This document shows positions 4,994 through 57,609 of a DNA stretch of 64,000 nt, piece by piece. Numbering within the stretch: position 1 is the first letter of the stretch; each line of letters opens with the position of its first letter. The DNA comes from a virus: IMG/VR virus record IMGVR_UViG_3300036766_002181, positions 180,716 to 244,715 of that record. One strand, written 5' to 3'. Both the position numbers and the translations under genes were made by a program. The notes beneath the pieces were generated by a model. The model worked only from the letters and a program-made list of their open reading frames with translations, did not search any database and had not been told where the DNA came from.

Positions 4994-5419
4994 TTACTTG
5001 ACTTCTATTTCTGTCACGCTGCTTGGCTGCTCTGCTGGCTTGGCAATTTCTGCCGTTACTGTTAAAATGCCATTTTTGCAGGTTGCCTCAAGAGAGGTTT
5101 CCTCAATTTTATAAGGAACAAAAAGCTTGTAGGAATGTCGTGCGGTTGCCTTTTCGTCTTTTGGTATAACCGCCAGTATCCTACTTTTTGACCAGTAGCT
5201 TACCGACAGGTCTTCTTTTGCATGTCCCGGAACTTCAAAGGTTGCAATCATTCTATTGTCCTTAAGTTCCAATTGCTTTGTGTTTGATCTAATTTCAGCA
5301 TATGTCCATTCAAGAGGAGATAGGCGATCCATTGGTGATATTGACACGTTCCAAATCGGTGCAAATAGTCCATCGAAAAAGCCTTCAAAAAGAGATTGAC
5401 CATGATTTTTTGATTTCAT
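4994..5419 (-). CDS. Hsp20/alpha-crystallin small heat-shock protein
   Basis: 141 residues. The alpha-crystallin domain covers about 45-125: FEVPGHAKEDL (61-71) and NGILTV (116-121) match the family's conserved strands. The N-terminal arm is short. The ATG is preceded by AAAGGA, a good ribosome site, and by a likely promoter at 5458-5485. It converges on the deformylase gene with three bases between. ATP-independent holdase chaperones occur in T4-like phages, possibly for virion assembly. Confidence 0.9.
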   Translation of the reverse strand: MKSKNHGQSLFEGFFDGLFAPIWNVSISPMDRLSPLEWTYAEIRSNTKQLELKDNRMIATFEVPGHAKEDLSVSYWSKSRILAVIPKDEKATARHSYKLFVPYKIEETSLEATCKNGILTVTAEIAKPAEQPSSVTEIEVK

Positions 5420-37386: not shown

Positions 37387-37414
37387 TTGTTTTTGAATTA
37401 GTTTAGATTATAAT
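37387..37414 (+). promoter_or_regulatory. sigma70-like promoter for amidoligase 1
   Basis: TTGTTT 37387-37392, 16-base spacer, TATAAT 37409-37414; the first usable ATG is at 37434. Confidence 0.65.
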
Positions 37415-37433
37415 GATATTCATCCAATCAAGG

Positions 37434-38591
37434 ATGCCAGGGAGAAACGACAAGATGCCAACCCTTCCGACCGCCGCCAGTGTTCGCCAGTGTTCGATTT
37501 GCCAGGTTATTGGCCACAACAGCCGCACCTGTCCTTCAGAGGCTGCCGTTGCTCTTCGTGGTGTCGTTCCTGCCGAGCTTGTTGCCTCAATCCGCTCTAA
37601 CCGTACCTTTGGCATCGAAGTCGAGTTTATCGGTTCCATGCAACGTGCTGCCGATGCCCTGAACCAGGCCGGGATTCCTTGCAGCGTCCAGGGCCACAAC
37701 CACTCGGTTTGTACGGCTTGGAAGGTCGTCACGGATGGTTCGGTGTCTGCCGGGGGTGAGCTTGTCTCCCCAATTCTCTCAGGCGCAGAAGGCCTTACAA
37801 CGGCTTACAAGGCCGTTCGTGCTCTTGCCGCCGCAGGTCTGTCGGCCAATCGTTCATGCGGCCTGCATGTTCATGTTGGGGCTGTCGATACGACTTCTGA
37901 GAAGCGTCTTTCGATTGCCCGGCGCTATGCCAAGTTTGAATCCCAGATTGATTCTTGGATGGCTCCTTCACGCCGGGCCAATGCCAGCCGATGGTGCCAG
38001 TCGATTATCGGTAGGACAGAGGGAACCAATCCTTCGATTCTTAATGATCGCTATTTCAAGGTCAACCTGACCGCCTTTAGCCGTCACCAGACCATTGAAT
38101 TCCGTCAGCATCAGGGTACGGTCAATGCCAAGAAGGTCTGCAACTGGGTCAAGTTCTGCGTGAACTTCGTGGAAGAGTCGCTTAATCGTTTGGTGTCTCC
38201 TGTCCAGCAGGAAACCCCTGTTTCGACCTGCCGTGTCGATAATGACATTCGTCTTACCCGCAGCCTTAACCGCATGGTTCAATACTTGGAGAGCCGTGGA
38301 ATTGCTTGCACCTCTGCGGACGTGCTTGCTCGTGACTGCAACGTTGGTTCCACGACGGTTGCGGTCATGATTTCTAACCTTCGCACCCGTTACGGCTACC
38401 AGATTTCACATCGTCGTGGCCAGGGCTACAGGCTGGTTAGCTCGCCTCTTGCTACTCGCCAGACGCTTGTCCCTGTCGTTGCTCCTGTTGCGCCCATGGC
38501 CGACGATTCCAGCCCCCTGGTTGGCCTGGACTTGGAGGCGACTCGCTTCTTCGCCGGCCGAGTGCAAGGCGTTGCAGTGACGGCAATTTAA
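37434..38591 (+). CDS. zinc knuckle-amidoligase-winged helix protein 1
   Basis: 385 residues (ATG 37455 also possible). A CCHC zinc knuckle (CSICQVIGHNSRTC, about 20-33) precedes an amidoligase_2-type domain: FGIEVEFIGS, GGELVSPILSG, CGLHVHVGA, IEFRQHQGTVNAKKVCNW. The last 100 residues hold a winged-helix-like segment (TTVAVMISNLRTRYGYQI, GQGYRLV). Amidoligases of the GCS/glutamine-synthetase-like fold join an amine to a carboxylate using ATP. GC-rich codon use contrasts with flanking PGxLY genes. Confidence 0.82.
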   Translation: MPGRNDKMPTLPTAASVRQCSICQVIGHNSRTCPSEAAVALRGVVPAELVASIRSNRTFGIEVEFIGSMQRAADALNQAGIPCSVQGHNHSVCTAWKVVTDGSVSAGGELVSPILSGAEGLTTAYKAVRALAAAGLSANRSCGLHVHVGAVDTTSEKRLSIARRYAKFESQIDSWMAPSRRANASRWCQSIIGRTEGTNPSILNDRYFKVNLTAFSRHQTIEFRQHQGTVNAKKVCNWVKFCVNFVEESLNRLVSPVQQETPVSTCRVDNDIRLTRSLNRMVQYLESRGIACTSADVLARDCNVGSTTVAVMISNLRTRYGYQISHRRGQGYRLVSSPLATRQTLVPVVAPVAPMADDSSPLVGLDLEATRFFAGRVQGVAVTAI

Positions 38592-47722: not shown

Positions 47723-49402
47723 TTATGTCAATCGAGCCAATCGGGCACGCTCTGTTCGACAAGAAAAACAATTGCAGGGCAGATCATTTACACCCACAAC
47801 ACTTGCCTCAATATTACTAATATCATTATTTAGGTTTCTATCGGCCCTAATAGACAGGTTGGTTTGAGCCATGTTCGGCACGGTGGTATTGATATAAACG
47901 CTAGGAGAGGCAACAGGCGGTCTTGCTCGGCCTGGCCGACGAAATAGCTCGGGCGGGGGAATAAATCCAAAATTCATGCCATCTTCTCCATTGTCGGGAG
48001 GAGCAAGAGGAGGAGGAGGAGGAGGAGGAGGAGGAGGATCGACATAGTTTATAGTAATGCCACTTGCCGGACGATTCATAGGAGCGGCAACTTCGCCGGC
48101 AGCGACAAGGGAGTTAACTCGATCATTGCTGTTTAGTTCTAGATCTTCATTATCAAAGTCTGGGGAAGGAGCATCAGGCGATTCTCTCTGATTTCCTCGT
48201 GCAAGAGAGGCAAGCATTCTACGATTATAAAAGTCTGCCGAGTCAGAATCTAGGCCTCTCCAATATCTGTCTGACTCGGCAGTAATGGCAAGACCTTCGG
48301 TATCAGTACCTGTTGTGGCCAGTGCAACAGGTACTGTTGCAACTTGGCCCCTTCTTCTACGAGGAGGTCTAGGAATATATGGAACTGCCGGCAGCATCAT
48401 ATTGCCAAATCTATAGACATAGTATTCTCTGTTCCTGTATCTTGCCTCAATATCAAATCCAAACTGATTGACAAGCCTTTTTATCGTAGTAATAAGCACA
48501 CGAGAAGACATGCCTGTAGTTGTCGAGGCTCTTTGAATGTTGAGTAAGACGTGTCCTCTGGGTGGACAATGGTGGTAGTATGTGTTCATTGTTAGAGCAG
48601 AAGGCCTTCTGCTCGGAGGAAGCTGGCTGTTATCTTCTTGTTCAATATCAAGACAATATTGAATAAGTTTGTTAAAGTTTTGCATTCCTCTTGTGCCAAT
48701 TGGATAAAATGGCGTAACATAGGTGTCTCTGCCACGCCTTCTCTGTGCCCTCTCGGCACCTGTAAAGGGAAACTCTTCTGTATAAAGCGAACAATTTTTG
48801 CCGGCCTCGACAAAGTTAACACAAAACTTAATCCAGTTAGAAATCTTTTTAATGTTCAGGGTTCCATGATGGTGTCGAAATTCAATTGTCCTGTGTCTCT
48901 GATAGGCGGCAAGATTAATCTTAAAATAACGATTATTATAAATGTTAGAATTTCTAATAGGAGAGAGAGATCTACAATAGGTGTTTAATTCTCCTCTTCT
49001 TGAGGGAGCCATAAGATTGTCAATTTGAGATTCAAAGTGTCCATAACGCCGGGCAATGTTTAGGCGTTCGATGGGAGACAGATCTCCTGCGTCTACGTGA
49101 ACATGTAGACCACAGGTAGAATTAACTCTTGCTCCTGCTGCCACAAGGGCCGCAACGGCAATTTTAACCTGCTCTAGACCAGCCTCGCCGGACAGGGGAG
49201 GAGAAACAAGCTCTCCACCATGGCCATTGTTGCTTCTAACCGAACCATCTGTGGTAATTTTCCAGGTCGTAGAGGTTCGATGATTATAGTCCTGAACGTC
49301 ACAAAAAATATTTCTGGCATTTAAGGCCTCTGCCGCCGTGTGTAGAGAAATCCAGGTAAATTCAATTTCTACACCAAATCTTCGGTCGCTAGCAATTGCC
49401 AT
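47723..49402 (-). CDS. amidoligase-winged helix protein 2, long form
   Basis: 559 residues. Amidoligase_2-type motifs start at the N-terminus: FGVEIEFTW, GGELVSPPLSG, CGLHVHVDA, PSRRGE, IEFRHHHGTLNIKKISNW. The N-terminal zinc knuckle of the other two is missing; instead CNCFSC lies near the C-terminus. A winged-helix-like region (ASTTTGMSSRVLITTIKRLV) is followed by a 200-residue disordered part with a run of ten prolines from a (GGA)n-type microsatellite at about 48003-48037. Confidence 0.8.
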   Translation of the reverse strand: MAIASDRRFGVEIEFTWISLHTAAEALNARNIFCDVQDYNHRTSTTWKITTDGSVRSNNGHGGELVSPPLSGEAGLEQVKIAVAALVAAGARVNSTCGLHVHVDAGDLSPIERLNIARRYGHFESQIDNLMAPSRRGELNTYCRSLSPIRNSNIYNNRYFKINLAAYQRHRTIEFRHHHGTLNIKKISNWIKFCVNFVEAGKNCSLYTEEFPFTGAERAQRRRGRDTYVTPFYPIGTRGMQNFNKLIQYCLDIEQEDNSQLPPSRRPSALTMNTYYHHCPPRGHVLLNIQRASTTTGMSSRVLITTIKRLVNQFGFDIEARYRNREYYVYRFGNMMLPAVPYIPRPPRRRRGQVATVPVALATTGTDTEGLAITAESDRYWRGLDSDSADFYNRRMLASLARGNQRESPDAPSPDFDNEDLELNSNDRVNSLVAAGEVAAPMNRPASGITINYVDPPPPPPPPPPLAPPDNGEDGMNFGFIPPPELFRRPGRARPPVASPSVYINTTVPNMAQTNLSIRADRNLNNDISNIEASVVGVNDLPCNCFSCRTERARLARLT

Positions 49403-51919: not shown

Positions 51920-53134
51920 TTATGTTCTTTCCGCAGCAGCACCCCGACGAGAAGCAAAGGCAGTTACCCTTCGAGCAAACCATCCAACTGTGGGAGCATC
52001 AAGGCCGATATAGGGATTATCGTTTTCACGAGCGACAAGAACGGGCGCTTGATCAAGTCTCCTGCGCCCATCCAGTTCCAGGACAGCATAATGGCTGCCA
52101 CCACGAGCATAAACAGAGGAAGGTGTAGTGTTTTCAGGCAAAACCAGCACACGATAACCCTGAAGTCGAGAAGTAATTCTATAGCCATGGACATGGCGAA
52201 GCCTAGAAACCATCGTGGAAATTGTCGTGGGCGCAAGACCCATGCTTCTGGCTGCGCGCTGCAATCCCATACCAGGGAAATTTTGAAGATTTTCAACAAG
52301 TTCGGTCATACGACCTTCTGTCGCAGGCCATTGATTATGACCAACATTATTTGAAACTGCCGGCACTTCAATGGCGGCGATATTTCCACTCCCTCCGCTC
52401 AGAGTTTCCTCTACAAAGTTAACACAAAACTTAATCCAGTTGCAAACCTTTCGAGCATTCACGGTTCCCTGGTGGTGCCGAAACTCTACGGTTCCATGCC
52501 GCTCAAAGGCAGAAATGTTAACCTTATAATATCGTTCATGGCGAAGACTTTCCATGCTGGCTCCACGATTGGAGCAACAAAAATAATTTTCGCTGCTACG
52601 GCGAGAGGGAGCAACAACCCGATCAATCTCGGCTTCAAGCTGTCCGTACCTATGGGCAATGGCATATCTTTGTTGGGGTGTAGAATTACGCATATCAACA
52701 TGGACATGCAGGCCACAGGAACGGTTGGCAGACATACCAGCAGTACGCATTGCCTTTAAAGCCCTATAGGCAGTTCTAAGCCCCTCTGAACCTGAAAGAA
52801 TGGGAGATACAAGTTCTCCACCAGCAGACACAGAGCCGTCTGTAACCACTCGCCAAGACCTTGAGACGCCATGGCCATATCCTTGGGTGTTGCAAGGAAT
52901 GCCAGCACGAGAAACAGCCCGTGCAGCAGATGCCATGGAACCAATAAATTCAATTTCAACACCAAAGCTACGATTTGAACGAATGGTGTTGAGATATTCA
53001 GGAAACTCAAGGTTACCAAGGGCCGCAGTTGCCTGGGGACAGGTGCGAGAGTTATGACCAGGTTCATGACAGGTTCCACAGTTGACCTGTCTGCGCGAGG
53101 ATCGTCGTGATTGGCGTCTAATGGCGGCTGGCAT
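51920..53134 (-). CDS. zinc knuckle-amidoligase-winged helix protein 3
   Basis: 404 residues, the closest paralog of the protein at 37434. CCHC knuckle CGTCHEPGHNSRTC (20-33); amidoligase motifs FGVEIEFIGS, GGELVSPILSG, CGLHVHVDM, VEFRHHQGTVNARKVCNW; winged-helix-like LAPTTISTMVSRLRHVHGYR ... LQGYRVL; a short C-terminal region. GC-rich codon use as in copy 1. Its own promoter lies at 53158-53185. Confidence 0.83.
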   Translation of the reverse strand: MPAAIRRQSRRSSRRQVNCGTCHEPGHNSRTCPQATAALGNLEFPEYLNTIRSNRSFGVEIEFIGSMASAARAVSRAGIPCNTQGYGHGVSRSWRVVTDGSVSAGGELVSPILSGSEGLRTAYRALKAMRTAGMSANRSCGLHVHVDMRNSTPQQRYAIAHRYGQLEAEIDRVVAPSRRSSENYFCCSNRGASMESLRHERYYKVNISAFERHGTVEFRHHQGTVNARKVCNWIKFCVNFVEETLSGGSGNIAAIEVPAVSNNVGHNQWPATEGRMTELVENLQNFPGMGLQRAARSMGLAPTTISTMVSRLRHVHGYRITSRLQGYRVLVLPENTTPSSVYARGGSHYAVLELDGRRRLDQAPVLVARENDNPYIGLDAPTVGWFARRVTAFASRRGAAAERT

Positions 53135-53157
53135 GATAGTGTTTCCCTGTGCCTCTG

Positions 53158-53185
53158 ATTATACCCAAAAGATTTCACTTGGCAA
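53158..53185 (-). promoter_or_regulatory. sigma70-like promoter for amidoligase 3
   Basis: On the minus strand: TTGCCA 53185-53180, 16-base spacer, TATAAT 53163-53158. ATG at 53134, with AGGGA in the leader. Confidence 0.65.
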
Positions 53186-53291
53186 GTAACAAGTGAAAGA
53201 AAGATAAAAATAAGTCTGGAAAATAGGGATATTCCCACCATATCTTACCTTGTCCCACATACCAAAATAATGAATTATTCATAAAAAGAGG

Positions 53292-53327
53292 TTATACACT
53301 CTTGACTTATCTACTTATAGTGTATAA
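53292..53327 (+). promoter_or_regulatory. operator-like inverted repeats over the NAD module promoter
   Basis: TTATACACT (53292-53300) and AGTGTATAA (53319-53327) are perfect inverted copies that bracket the -35 box. The right site is itself a palindrome, CTTATAGTGTATAAG (53314-53328), covering the -10 box. Fits repression by a dimer. Confidence 0.7.
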
Positions 53328-53330
53328 GAT
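53302..53330 (+). promoter_or_regulatory. promoter of the NAD salvage module, leaderless type
   Basis: TTGACT 53302-53307, 17-base spacer, TAAGAT 53325-53330 (or TATAAG 53323-53328). ATG at 53338. Confidence 0.7.
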
Positions 53331-53337
53331 GGTAAAT

Positions 53338-54114
53338 ATGAATCAGCAGAAGAACAAGCCCCATTCTTATGAATATCCCCGTCCATCCGTTACGGTCGAT
53401 GGTTTGGTTTTTGGTTTTGATCCTGAAAAGCTAACCTTGGAAGTCTTGTTGATGAGGCGTGCAAGCGATACCTTTGACGGCTTCTGGGCCCTTCCAGGAG
53501 GCTTTGTTGAGGTATCAGATGGGGGTAGCCAGGGCGAGTCTCTTGATACCGCCGTAAGGCGTGAGATTCAAGAGGAAACTGGTGCCAATATCGAATATCT
53601 AGAGCAACTCTATACCTTTGGAGATACGGGACGAGATCCCCGTGGCCGAGTGATCTCAATTGCCTATTTTGGTCTGGTTAGAACCAAGAGTCTTTCGATT
53701 AAAAGCGGTTCAGATGCCTCTGAGGCTGCCTGGTTCTCCATTGAAGAAGCCCTGCAAAAGACCCTGGCATTTGACCATAATAAGATTTTGACAATGGGAA
53801 TTCAAAGGCTACAGGCAAAGATTCGTTACTCTCCAATCGGCATTGATCTTTTGCCAACCAGATTTAGTCTTTGGGATTTGCAGAAGCTTTATGAGGCCAT
53901 TTTGTTGGGCCCCCTAAACAAGAATGCCTTTAGGAAGCAGGTACTTTTTTATCTTGATGGCATTCTTGATAAGGCCGGTACTGAAATGGGTCCGGTTTCT
54001 CGCCGACCTGCTCAACTTTATTCCTTTAACAAAGATGCATATTCAAAGGCCATTGAAAATGGTGGATTAAATTTTGAGATTTCACAAACGATAGTAGTAA
54101 CAAAAAAGATATAA
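53338..54114 (+). CDS. Nudix-winged helix protein, NrtR-like regulator of NAD metabolism
   Basis: 258 residues from ATG 53338, set by the promoter. Residues about 10-150 are a Nudix domain with RREIQEETG and a six-residue insertion between GG and the following glutamate (GGFVEVSDGGSQGES). The C-terminal 90 residues (FSLWDLQKLYEAIL, NAFRKQVLFYLDGIL, RRPAQLYSF) match the winged-helix part of NrtR-type regulators, which sense ADP-ribose and repress NAD genes. It leads the NAMPT gene by 27 bases and sits under a palindromic operator, so autoregulation is likely. Confidence 0.8.
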   Translation: MNQQKNKPHSYEYPRPSVTVDGLVFGFDPEKLTLEVLLMRRASDTFDGFWALPGGFVEVSDGGSQGESLDTAVRREIQEETGANIEYLEQLYTFGDTGRDPRGRVISIAYFGLVRTKSLSIKSGSDASEAAWFSIEEALQKTLAFDHNKILTMGIQRLQAKIRYSPIGIDLLPTRFSLWDLQKLYEAILLGPLNKNAFRKQVLFYLDGILDKAGTEMGPVSRRPAQLYSFNKDAYSKAIENGGLNFEISQTIVVTKKI

Positions 54115-54141
54115 AAGAAAGAAAGAAAAGAGGATATCAAT

Positions 54142-55590
54142 ATGACATGGAGCGACAAGGTAACTGAGAGGCCGGCAGTATCGGCAAATAGGGTTTTAGA
54201 ATTTAATCCCTGTTTAGCCACAGACTCATATAAGGCTACTCATGCCAGACAATACCCCAAGGGAACAACCAAGATCTATTCCTATTTTGAAAGTCGAGGA
54301 AAGCCTGATTCTTGGTCAGATGAAGTAGTTTTCTTTGGCTTGCAATACATGCTATCCCGGTTGGTTGGCAGCATTGTTACAAAGCAGCATGTTCAAGAAG
54401 CCAAAGAAATTTGGGCAATGCACTTTGGAAACGACGAACTATTCAATTATGATGGATGGATGCACATTGTTAATTCCCATGGTGGAAAACTTCCGGTTTC
54501 AATTAAGGCCATACCAGAAGGAACAGTCGTTCCTACACGAAATGTTTTAATGACGATCGAAAATACAGATCCCCGTTGTTTTTGGTTAACCAACTGGCTA
54601 GAAACCTATTTGGTTCAAGCCTGGTATCCTTCAACCGTAGCCACACAGTCCAGAGAAATGAAAAAGATTTTGTTGCAAGGATTAAATCTGACAGGAGATC
54701 CTTCCGGTTTACCATTTAAGCTACACGATTTTGGTTTTCGTGGCGTTACAAGCTACGAACAGGCCGGAATCGGCGGTGCAGCACACTTGGTAAACTTCCA
54801 GGGAACAGATACTATGGCCGGGATCGTTTTGGCTCGTCAATTTTATGAAGCTAAAATGCCCGGATATTCCATTCCGGCGTCTGAACATAGCACAATTACC
54901 TCATGGGGCAAAGAAAACGAAGTTGAAGCCTTTAGAAATATGCTTGATATCTATCCCAAAGGTTTGGTTGCCTGCGTATCTGATTCTTTTGATATTATTA
55001 AAGCTTGTAAGCTACTATGGGGTGGAGCCTTAAAAGAAAAGGTTCTTGCCAGAGACGGAACCCTGGTTGTAAGACCTGATTCGGGCGAACCAGTTGAAAC
55101 GGTTTTGGCAGTTATCGAAGCTCTGGGCTCGGCATTTGGTTTTACCAAAAATGCAAAAGGTTTTAAGGTTTTGCCTTCACAGATTAGAATGATACAGGGT
55201 GATGGAATTGATTTTGAAACAATGAAAAAGGTTGTAGAAAATTTGGCCAACAATGGCTGGTCTATTGACAACATTGCCTTCGGTTCCGGTGGAGGACTTT
55301 TGCAGAAAGTAAACAGAGATACCCTACAGTTTGCTTTTAAGTGTTCTGCTATTGATGGAGAATATGAAGGTGAAACTTTTTCACGAGAAGTTTTTAAAGA
55401 TCCAATTACAAGCTCCGCCAAAAAATCAAAACACGGGCGGCTTGCTCTGATTAGAGATAATAATGGAAAATTTCAAACCGTGTCTGAGTTGGTGGCTCAG
55501 GGCCGAGACGAACTAAGAGAAGTCTTTAGAGATGGAGAGTTGCTCGAAAAATCTACTTTTGACGAAATTAAAACAAGGGCTATTTTATAG
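54142..55590 (+). CDS. nadV: nicotinamide phosphoribosyltransferase (NAMPT)
   Basis: 482 residues, full length for the family. N-terminal LATDSYKATHARQYP, HDFGFRGVTSYEQAG, EHSTITSWG, VSDSFDI, LVVRPDSGEP and FGSGGGLLQKVNRDT are the conserved NAMPT active-site segments. It converts nicotinamide and PRPP to NMN. AAGAGG precedes the ATG. Phages with NAMPT plus an adenylyltransferase rebuild NAD+ after host defences have destroyed it (the NARP2 pathway). Confidence 0.92.
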   Translation: MTWSDKVTERPAVSANRVLEFNPCLATDSYKATHARQYPKGTTKIYSYFESRGKPDSWSDEVVFFGLQYMLSRLVGSIVTKQHVQEAKEIWAMHFGNDELFNYDGWMHIVNSHGGKLPVSIKAIPEGTVVPTRNVLMTIENTDPRCFWLTNWLETYLVQAWYPSTVATQSREMKKILLQGLNLTGDPSGLPFKLHDFGFRGVTSYEQAGIGGAAHLVNFQGTDTMAGIVLARQFYEAKMPGYSIPASEHSTITSWGKENEVEAFRNMLDIYPKGLVACVSDSFDIIKACKLLWGGALKEKVLARDGTLVVRPDSGEPVETVLAVIEALGSAFGFTKNAKGFKVLPSQIRMIQGDGIDFETMKKVVENLANNGWSIDNIAFGSGGGLLQKVNRDTLQFAFKCSAIDGEYEGETFSREVFKDPITSSAKKSKHGRLALIRDNNGKFQTVSELVAQGRDELREVFRDGELLEKSTFDEIKTRAIL

Positions 55591-55631
55591 TGTCAGAACA
55601 TGGATAGAAAAAACTTATAAATATATTTTCC

Positions 55632-56735
55632 ATGCCAACAACAAACCTACAACATCTGTTGAATAATCATTTTAGACTCTATGTTGTTGCAACAGGGGCA
55701 GGAGCAGGGATTCAACAGGCTCTTTGGTCTGTTCCTGGATGCTCTTCTTTTCTTGTTGGCGCATCCTTTCCTTATGATCCAAGGCAGACAGAGGAGTTTT
55801 TGGGCTTTAAACCAGAGAAGAGCTTCTGTTCTGCTGAAACTGCCATCGATCTTTCCATGGCCGCCTATATGAGGGCCTGTGGAGAGGATCTCTTGTTGGA
55901 TAAACAGTCCATTGGTCTTGGCCTTACTGCCTCTGTGGCCACTCTTAAGTCACACAGGGGCGAGCATAGGGTTTATGCGTCGGTTACAACAAAAGACAAA
56001 GTATGGTTGTCTGAGTTGATTCTGCCGAAGCCATCAACAGATGAACAGGATATTAGTGCTATTAGAATTAGGGATGGAAATCTGGCAGATGAACTTGGCC
56101 TAAATCTTCTTTATTCTGTACTTGATATTCAAACCGATTCCAATAAAGAAGATGTAACAGACCTGGCAAGAACCAGATTTTTTATGCATCCATTTTTCGA
56201 TAATGATGGTGGAAGGCGTTATGAGGGGGCACCAAAGGGTCACAAGATTTTGTTTCCCGGAGCCTTCAATCCTCCGCATGCAGGACACTTCTTTAATGCA
56301 AAGAATGCTGGTGGAAATGATACGATCTTTAATATCACGGCAAATCCGCCGCACAAGGAAGAATTAACTCTAGGAGAAATGCTACAAAGGGCATGTTTTC
56401 TTAAGGGACACAAGGTTCTCTTTACAAGGGACGATCCCTATTATCTGGACAAGGCCAAGAATTTTCCTGGTTGTAATTTTGTAATTGGGGCAGATGCCCT
56501 GATCAGATTGCTTGATCAAAAGTGGTATGACCGCCCGGTTAGGGATATCTTGGTAGAATTTAATCGCCTTGGAACAATATTTTTGGTTGGCGAACGAAAT
56601 GGAGAAGGTTTAGAGAAGATTATTATGGATGGAAGGCTGCCAAGATATCATTCCAATATATTCTCCTCTCTTCCTACTTCTCCCTATTCAAATCTTAGTT
56701 CAACTCAAATTAGAGAAGAGCGATTAATCAAGTAG
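55632..56735 (+). CDS. bifunctional CinA/PncC-like and NMN adenylyltransferase
   Basis: 367 residues. The N-terminal half (about 10-185) resembles the CinA C-terminal/PncC NMN-deamidase-like domain (GAGAGIQQALWSVPG, FCSAETAIDLSMAAYM, GLGLTASVAT, HRVYASVTT). The C-terminal half (205-367) is a nucleotidyltransferase with GAFNPPHAGHF (210-220) and SSTQIR (356-361), the two adenylyl-transfer motifs of NadD/NadR-type NMNATs. It makes NAD+ from NMN supplied by the upstream NAMPT. The fusion of an NMN-handling fold to NMNAT is notable. Confidence 0.85.
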   Translation: MPTTNLQHLLNNHFRLYVVATGAGAGIQQALWSVPGCSSFLVGASFPYDPRQTEEFLGFKPEKSFCSAETAIDLSMAAYMRACGEDLLLDKQSIGLGLTASVATLKSHRGEHRVYASVTTKDKVWLSELILPKPSTDEQDISAIRIRDGNLADELGLNLLYSVLDIQTDSNKEDVTDLARTRFFMHPFFDNDGGRRYEGAPKGHKILFPGAFNPPHAGHFFNAKNAGGNDTIFNITANPPHKEELTLGEMLQRACFLKGHKVLFTRDDPYYLDKAKNFPGCNFVIGADALIRLLDQKWYDRPVRDILVEFNRLGTIFLVGERNGEGLEKIIMDGRLPRYHSNIFSSLPTSPYSNLSSTQIREERLIK

Positions 56736-57278
56736 GTTTAATCTATCAAGAGCAAGATAGGCAAGATCAAATCCTCTGACCTGTCCTGTTTTTAATAGTT
56801 TTTCTTTAAAGTCATTTAAATCCCAAACAACAACCTCTAGGAATTCATTGGGATCCAGGTCTAGCCTGGCCACTTTTTTACATCCTGTGGCCAGAAACAT
56901 ATGTCTAATTCCGCTTGAATAGGGAGAATAGTTTAAGGAAGAAATGTGAAGCATCTCCTCGGCATCTAAACCAGTTTCCTCTTTTAACTCACGTCGAGCA
57001 GCACCTTCCAAGTCTTCTCCGTCTGATAGACCACCACCAGGAAGTTCAATCTGTTCTTTTTCCAAACCAGGCCGCCACTGTTTAACCGTATAAACTTTGT
57101 GGTCTGATGTAATCGGAAAAATCTGAACAGAACTTTTATCCTGGTCGGTGAAGAAGTTCTCAATCATTCCGTTTTCAAGTCTAAACTGTTTAACGTTTAT
57201 TCTTTTTTCAAAGCCAGAACTTTTATCACGAAGCTTTACAATGAATTCTCTTTGCTTTTTGTTTCGTTTCTTTTTCAC
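56724..57278 (-). CDS. Nudix hydrolase, ADP-ribose pyrophosphatase type
   Basis: 184 residues. Nudix box with intact REL.EETG (GGGLSDGEDLEGAARRELKE then ETGL) inside a NudF-like fold: VYTVKQWRPGLEKEQIELPGG upstream. Such enzymes split ADP-ribose into AMP and ribose-5-phosphate. Convergent with, and overlapping by twelve bases, the NMNAT gene; it may recycle the ADP-ribose made when NAD is degraded. Confidence 0.85.
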   Translation of the reverse strand: MKKKRNKKQREFIVKLRDKSSGFEKRINVKQFRLENGMIENFFTDQDKSSVQIFPITSDHKVYTVKQWRPGLEKEQIELPGGGLSDGEDLEGAARRELKEETGLDAEEMLHISSLNYSPYSSGIRHMFLATGCKKVARLDLDPNEFLEVVVWDLNDFKEKLLKTGQVRGFDLAYLALDRLNLLD

Positions 57279-57297
57279 AATATAATTGTGGTTCCCC

Positions 57298-57609
57298 CTA
57301 AGAAACAGAGACTGTCTTACTCTTTTTTATTTGATTTTCAACTTCTTCGATTCTTTTTGAAAAGGCATTATGAATAACCTTCTTTATTACAGTCTCAGAA
57401 ATTCCCTGTTCTCTTGCCTCTTCTACGGCATCGCCTGCCAGGGGCCAATCTGCGTCTATAATTGCCTCTTCAAGAACCTTTAAGAAGCCGCTAAGATCCT
57501 CTTCTCTGGCAGAATTATCATAGGGGGCCTTATAGGGGCTTGATGATGAGGGTATGGCGAATTTGTTTTTCTTTTTGTTGAAAAAAACTTCTTTAAGAGT
57601 TAATGTCAT
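57298..57609 (-). CDS. hypothetical virion-type protein
   Basis: 103 residues from ATG 57609. LTLKEVFFNKKK at the start resembles LSLKEVFALK of the protein at 1430-2629; the rest is helical (FLKVLEEAIIDADWPLAGDA, ETVIKKVIHNAF). Likely a virion or assembly protein because it borders tail genes. Confidence 0.62.
   Translation of the reverse strand: MTLTLKEVFFNKKKNKFAIPSSSSPYKAPYDNSAREEDLSGFLKVLEEAIIDADWPLAGDAVEEAREQGISETVIKKVIHNAFSKRIEEVENQIKKSKTVSVS

Follow-up and report, generated by a model that had tools for sequence, protein, structure and literature searches.

The window analyzed here covers the final 64 kb of a virus record of 244,715 bases and sits at the end of the contig; the 245-kb record may itself be a fragment. 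Its genes include those for a T4-type baseplate protein, a sigma-70 region 2 protein, and a DNA ligase of the ATP type, which identify the source as a large tailed phage. Three consecutive plus-strand genes, lying between 53292 and 56735, encode an NrtR-type Nudix/winged-helix regulator, a 482-aa nicotinamide phosphoribosyltransferase (NAMPT; 54142 to 55590), and a 367-aa fusion (55632 to 56735) of a PncC/CinA-like N-terminal domain to a NadD/NMNAT-like C-terminal domain. A preliminary description had placed an NAD+ module of four genes here, and all four are open, intact reading frames at that place. Three of them make up the operon from 53292 to 56735, but the fourth does not belong to it. 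This gene, for a NudE/ADPRase-like Nudix hydrolase (56724 to 57278; NUDIX, 1.4e-15; best NCBIfam match, NudE), is convergent on the minus strand and overlaps the fusion gene by 12 bp, and no equivalent of it flanks the module in related loci; we therefore no longer count an ADP-ribose Nudix hydrolase as part of the module. No riboswitch or other known RNA was found in 53000 to 57400, and a scan with a defense library returned weak Nudix matches only. The 64-kb window also encodes three separate Amidoligase_2 proteins (37413 to 38591, 47723 to 49402, and 51920 to 53134), the last of them divergent from the NAD operon.

The product of the middle gene matched PRK09198 with 597 bits, against an NCBIfam cutoff of 405, and NAMPT_N above the Pfam cutoff; its match to PHROG 448 (1.6e-166) was nearly full length. 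Animal NAMPT structures were matched at 2e-157 (about 525 to 527 bits) and the phage Namat 9w5w with 247 bits. The NARP1 route (Namat plus Adps, by way of ADPR-PP) was considered and rejected: the sole NAPRTase-family gene found in the record is this NAMPT-like one, with its 247 bits to Namat, and no PRPP-synthetase-family N domain was found in the record, which may be incomplete. The enzyme would combine nicotinamide, freed when NAD+ is split, with host PRPP to give NMN. PRPP synthetase had no match in the 245-kb record, with the same proviso that this may be a fragment. Since PRPP and ATP must be supplied by the host, the module had been called "complete" with some overstatement.

Among other phage NAMPT genes, those of L015, L016, and L017 (5995 to 8334) are interrupted in frame by about 290 aa that separate their two matching halves; the insert is probably an intein given a weak match to Pfam Intein_splicing (0.003, below the cutoff). 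Another phage NAMPT gene (L018, 4549 to 6870) is split by a group I intron (Rfam RF00028, 73.5 bits, 5046 to 5297) that is followed by a 214-aa homing endonuclease-like ORF.

The third gene was less easily placed. Single-sequence searches with the whole fusion matched no PHROG and, in phmmer, no PDB chain. Scanning viral contigs with a pattern from the fusion protein alone found nothing, nor did the first genome scan, made with a two-row alignment. Deeper alignments did recover homologs, and our alignment comprises 25 of them (17 phage and 8 cellular). In Pfam, 55632-56735 matched CTP_transf_like above the cutoff (7.1e-6) and CinA weakly (0.019), and both families were matched in all eight phage homologs scanned. 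In a profile of the 25 homologs, the second half matched NadD (1kam, 3.2e-9) and the first half the NMN deamidase PncC (2a9s, 3.1e-4). The AlphaFold model of the fusion has a mean pLDDT of 91.2, and Foldseek assigned its first half to the CinA/PncC family with a probability of 1.00 and its second half to human NMNAT3 and NMNAT1 at about 1.00. What had been described simply as an NMNAT fusion is thus, more specifically, a PncC/CinA-like domain joined to an NMNAT-like one, and no other CTP_transf_like gene was found in the record. We take the protein to resemble the Arabidopsis plant proteins At2g01220/At3g27610; a literature search returned nothing about function.

The NMNAT-like domain (about residues 205 to 367; 56244 to 56735) carries the motifs GAFNPPHxGH, PPHK, GADxxxR, KW, and SSTxxR. 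H216, H219, H241, K242, and S357 are present in all 17 phage rows and W298 in 16 of them; the cellular homologs have Asp at 241 and Tyr at 298. The NadD-like His and Trp presumably provide phosphate contact and pyridine stacking, as in NadD. By sequence and fold (the NadD match, the NMNAT fold, and the motifs), the phage therefore encodes an NMNAT domain of the kind expected for NARP2, and the proposed likeness to NARP2 stands to the extent that NAMPT and NMNAT form such a pair. The domain would convert NMN and ATP to NAD+, although its NadD-family similarity leaves room for a preference for NaMN over NMN. It is not of the NadM-Nudix (NatV) or NadR type, as its N-terminal partner has the CinA/PncC fold. 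In the portions that we drew on, surveys from 2021 and 2022 (PMC9503650, PMC7824862) mention no phage NMNATs other than NadM-Nudix and NadR. The salvage systems they describe, NadV with NadM-Nudix (NatV) or NadR, share with ours the combination of NadV (that is, NAMPT) with a fused NMNAT partner, but there the NMNAT is joined either to a Nudix domain or to a P-loop kinase, whereas here its partner is a PncC/CinA-like domain.

That domain (about residues 1 to 190; 55632 to 56201) shares its fold with the PncC/CinA-C NMN deamidases, with a Foldseek probability of 1.0 and TM to target reaching 0.74, but differs from them in its catalytic residues and in the attached nucleotidyltransferase. In Agrobacterium tumefaciens PncC, S31 and K63 are required for catalysis, as S31A and K63A abolish activity, and S48 and Y58 are the residues that bind phosphate (PMC5384747). 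The position likely to correspond to S31 is an invariant Gly (about G22, or one of its neighbors, in the window protein) in the gap-free reading. Although hhalign places a gap there, neither reading gives a Ser in the window protein, and no phage member has a Ser at the gap-free position. At the K63 position (column 53), the window protein has T53, 15 of the 17 phage rows have Thr or Gln, and none of the 25 homologs has Lys. G36, S38, and Y48, the equivalents of G46, S48, and Y58, are invariant. Because the Ser/Lys dyad appears to be lost while the phosphate-binding residues are kept, we regard this half as probably an NMN-binding, non-deamidating domain. It would still bind NMN-like ligands, and it may pass on substrate, or regulate or dimerize, rather than divert NMN to NaMN.

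We also considered whether the fusion might be bifunctional, with the PncC-like half converting NMN to NaMN by a changed mechanism, the NadD-like half producing NaAD, and host NadE completing NAD+, in which case the operon would be a nicotinamide-to-NaAD route. The C-terminal half is nearest in sequence to NadD, a NaMN-preferring family, a PncC-fold domain is attached to it, and the new invariant residues G110, R113, and R145 (with H108/H112 in most members) could serve another mechanism. This arrangement nevertheless seems improbable to us, since the dyad whose alanine substitutions abolish PncC activity (PMC5384747) is replaced in the phage members and the Foldseek neighbors of the second half are dual NMN/NaMN NMNATs.

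Searches with fusion patterns alone located the fusion gene in 16 viral contigs; it also occurs in 12 cellular genomes, of which 11 belong to Planctomycetota. The order NrtR-NAMPT-fusion, all on one strand, is present in the window and in four further phage contigs (L043/L026, L073/L046, L076, and L077/L047). Recurrence at about 40 to 52% protein identity argues that this order did not arise by chance. Related arrangements are a Nudix gene without a winged helix followed by NAMPT and the fusion (L045), the order NAMPT, fusion, Nudix (L044), and one ORF intervening between NAMPT and the fusion (L021). Of the 16 contigs recovered with the fusion sequence as the sole query, 4 have NAMPT next to it; if chance adjacency is assumed to occur at a rate of 0.01 to 0.05, the binomial probability of this is 1.7e-5 to 7e-3. 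In 8 of the 16 records, several of them longer than 300 kb, no NAMPT was seen, and in G004, G007, and G010 it lies far from the fusion. In G004 and G010, NAMPT apparently adjoins a NadM-Nudix-type ORF, identified by its size, position, and Nudix match. The fusion is therefore not simply an obligate partner of NAMPT and may have a role independent of it. In a phage lineage with NAMPT elsewhere, a zinc-ribbon Nudix-like protein is encoded just upstream of the fusion (L024, 518 to 1099; L048, 5001 to 5525).

Such records bear on the idea that the nucleotidyltransferase uses another substrate and that in some phages it lies near NAMPT only by coincidence. Several large contigs have the fusion but show no NAMPT, the fusion is apparently accompanied by NadM in G004 and G010, and the cellular relatives are standalone genes in which Asp and Tyr replace His and Trp. 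Against this, adjacency to NAMPT is repeated, and the NadD-like His and Trp are retained in the phage proteins; we consider another substrate quite unlikely.

Phage and cellular fusion clades split with full support (100/100). Resolution within the phage part of the tree is poor, and the NAMPT-linked fusions are scattered over it. The CinA-like plus nucleotidyltransferase proteins of Planctomycetota share the two-domain architecture at 26 to 32% identity but form the separate clade and lack the PPHK His and the Trp of the phage fusions. In none of the seven cellular loci whose neighbors were read does the gene lie beside NAMPT. These Planctomycetota genes (L028 to L039) are standalone, and some of the genomes have another CinA-family match.

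The regulator gene at the head of the operon occupies 53329 to 54114. Its longest ORF begins at TTG 53302, but the homolog alignment and the sequence itself make ATG 53329 or 53338 the likely start. Translated from 53302, it matched NUDIX (PF00293, 8.8e-20) and NrtR_WHD (PF21906, 7.7e-13) above the Pfam cutoffs, and thus a Nudix sensor and an NrtR-class winged helix are combined in one chain. The claim that the module has a regulator of its own is borne out in that an NrtR-class protein is encoded at its head. Full-length matches to both solved structures were of similar strength (AraR 5bs6, 2e-31, 112 bits; Shewanella NrtR 3gz5, 3e-29, 105 bits). That the protein scores about equally against AraR, an arabinose regulator, and reaches only 161.9 of the 400 bits set as the cutoff for the NCBIfam equivalog NF050029 (NtrR) counts against a role in NAD metabolism. 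The main support for that role comes from its genomic company, described below. Bacterial NrtR and AraR have the same Nudix plus winged-helix layout (about 105 to 112 bits), but the full REx2EE box of the phage members is absent from the Shewanella NrtR and AraR chains in our alignments. R78, E79, E82, and E83 of this box are invariant in six phage homologs. With its Nudix box intact, unlike those of the AraR and NrtR structures, the regulator may also hydrolyze its own ligand. NrtR-class regulators sense ADP-ribose, according to the relevant part of one survey (PMC9503650), and by family membership we infer the same ligand here.

Immediately upstream, at 53292 to 53327 on the plus strand, a 9-bp perfect inverted repeat, TTATACACT-N18-AGTGTATAA, overlies a sigma-70-like promoter (TTGACT, 17 nt, TAAGAT). 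A 9-bp arm was reached in 16 of 1,000 dinucleotide shuffles of the 76-bp region, and we treat the repeat as a candidate operator only. Short ACAC..GTGT repeats lie at the same position upstream of the regulators in L043, L040/L042, L046, and L047, which are the loci in which the motif was discovered. As a general operator of phage NrtR the motif was rejected, since it occurred in 1 of 18 held-out loci versus 0.5 expected. Many of the held-out regulators appear to start directly after or inside other ORFs, and other repeats were seen by eye in L074 and L078.

Phage NrtR genes also lie near NAMPT, NadM, PncB, PncA-like, NadD-like, or ADP-ribosylglycohydrolase genes. NAMPT alone is the neighbor of the winged-helix regulators of L040, L042, and L075, and NadM-Nudix together with NAMPT is found in L074 and L084, the NadM of L084 being identical to the one in LR756504.1. 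In L086, L087, and L092 the regulator has as neighbors phosphoribosyltransferases similar to the PncB of phage G, and in L081 and L082 its neighbors include NadD-like proteins. ADP-ribosylglycohydrolase genes were seen within a few kilobases of NrtR-type regulators in L082, L086, and L091. Bacillus phage G, an isolated phage, has a parallel regulated NAD salvage cluster, gp273-gp277 (L072), in which the NrtR-type gp273 is followed by an isochorismatase-family gene and then a nicotinate phosphoribosyltransferase gene. An NrtR-type Nudix regulator thus heads the NAD salvage genes in both phages, but phage G encodes an isochorismatase-family (PncA-like) protein and nicotinate phosphoribosyltransferase where our phage encodes NAMPT and NMNAT.

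Considered as a whole, the locus is best explained, we believe with moderate confidence, as a regulated NARP2-type NAD+ salvage operon whose likeliest benefit would be countering NAD-depleting immunity. The NrtR-type protein would bind the inverted repeat over its own promoter and repress the operon until ADP-ribose or a related NAD breakdown product bound its Nudix domain and relieved repression; the pathway would therefore be on while NAD+ is being consumed. Counter-defense of the NARP2 type has been described for NAMPT and NMNAT-type enzymes (PMC11984713, PMC12028318). NARP2 and the window operon have in common a phage-encoded NAMPT adjoining an NMNAT domain and the predicted conversion of nicotinamide to NMN to NAD+, but the operon has a PncC-like/NadD-like fusion as its NMNAT and has an NrtR-type regulator at its head.

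The same genes might simply supply NAD+ for large-phage replication, tuned by NAD turnover, any counter-defense being no more than a by-product. NAMPT is ordinary in phages (1,913 of 50,697 records) and common among the large ones (33% of jumbo phages in the figure given by one survey [PMC9503650]), and the regulator resembles an ordinary NAD-homeostasis repressor. On the other hand, the DNA ligase in the window is ATP dependent, so that no special NAD+ demand is evident, and a counter-defense function is on record for such enzymes (PMC11984713, PMC12028318). We think general metabolism somewhat unlikely as the main purpose.

Returning to the regulated salvage operon, we put forward tentatively, as a possibility beyond it, that phage NAD+ reconstitution is inducible. 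A breakdown-product-sensing, possibly self-clearing Nudix repressor would induce NAMPT along with an NMNAT class not described from phages before, in which a pseudoenzyme domain derived from PncC senses or channels NMN, and several phage lineages would share the regulator type while exchanging the salvage enzymes.

With its link to NAMPT in divergent phages, the PncC-fused NMNAT would be a further phage NMNAT type, beside the NadM-Nudix and NadR types named in the portions of the surveys cited above. The phage locus also gives a testable function to a two-domain family that is found in Planctomycetota as well. Finally, regulators of the NrtR class accompany several unrelated sets of phage NAD salvage genes, which suggests that certain phages detect the breakdown of NAD and respond to it on demand.
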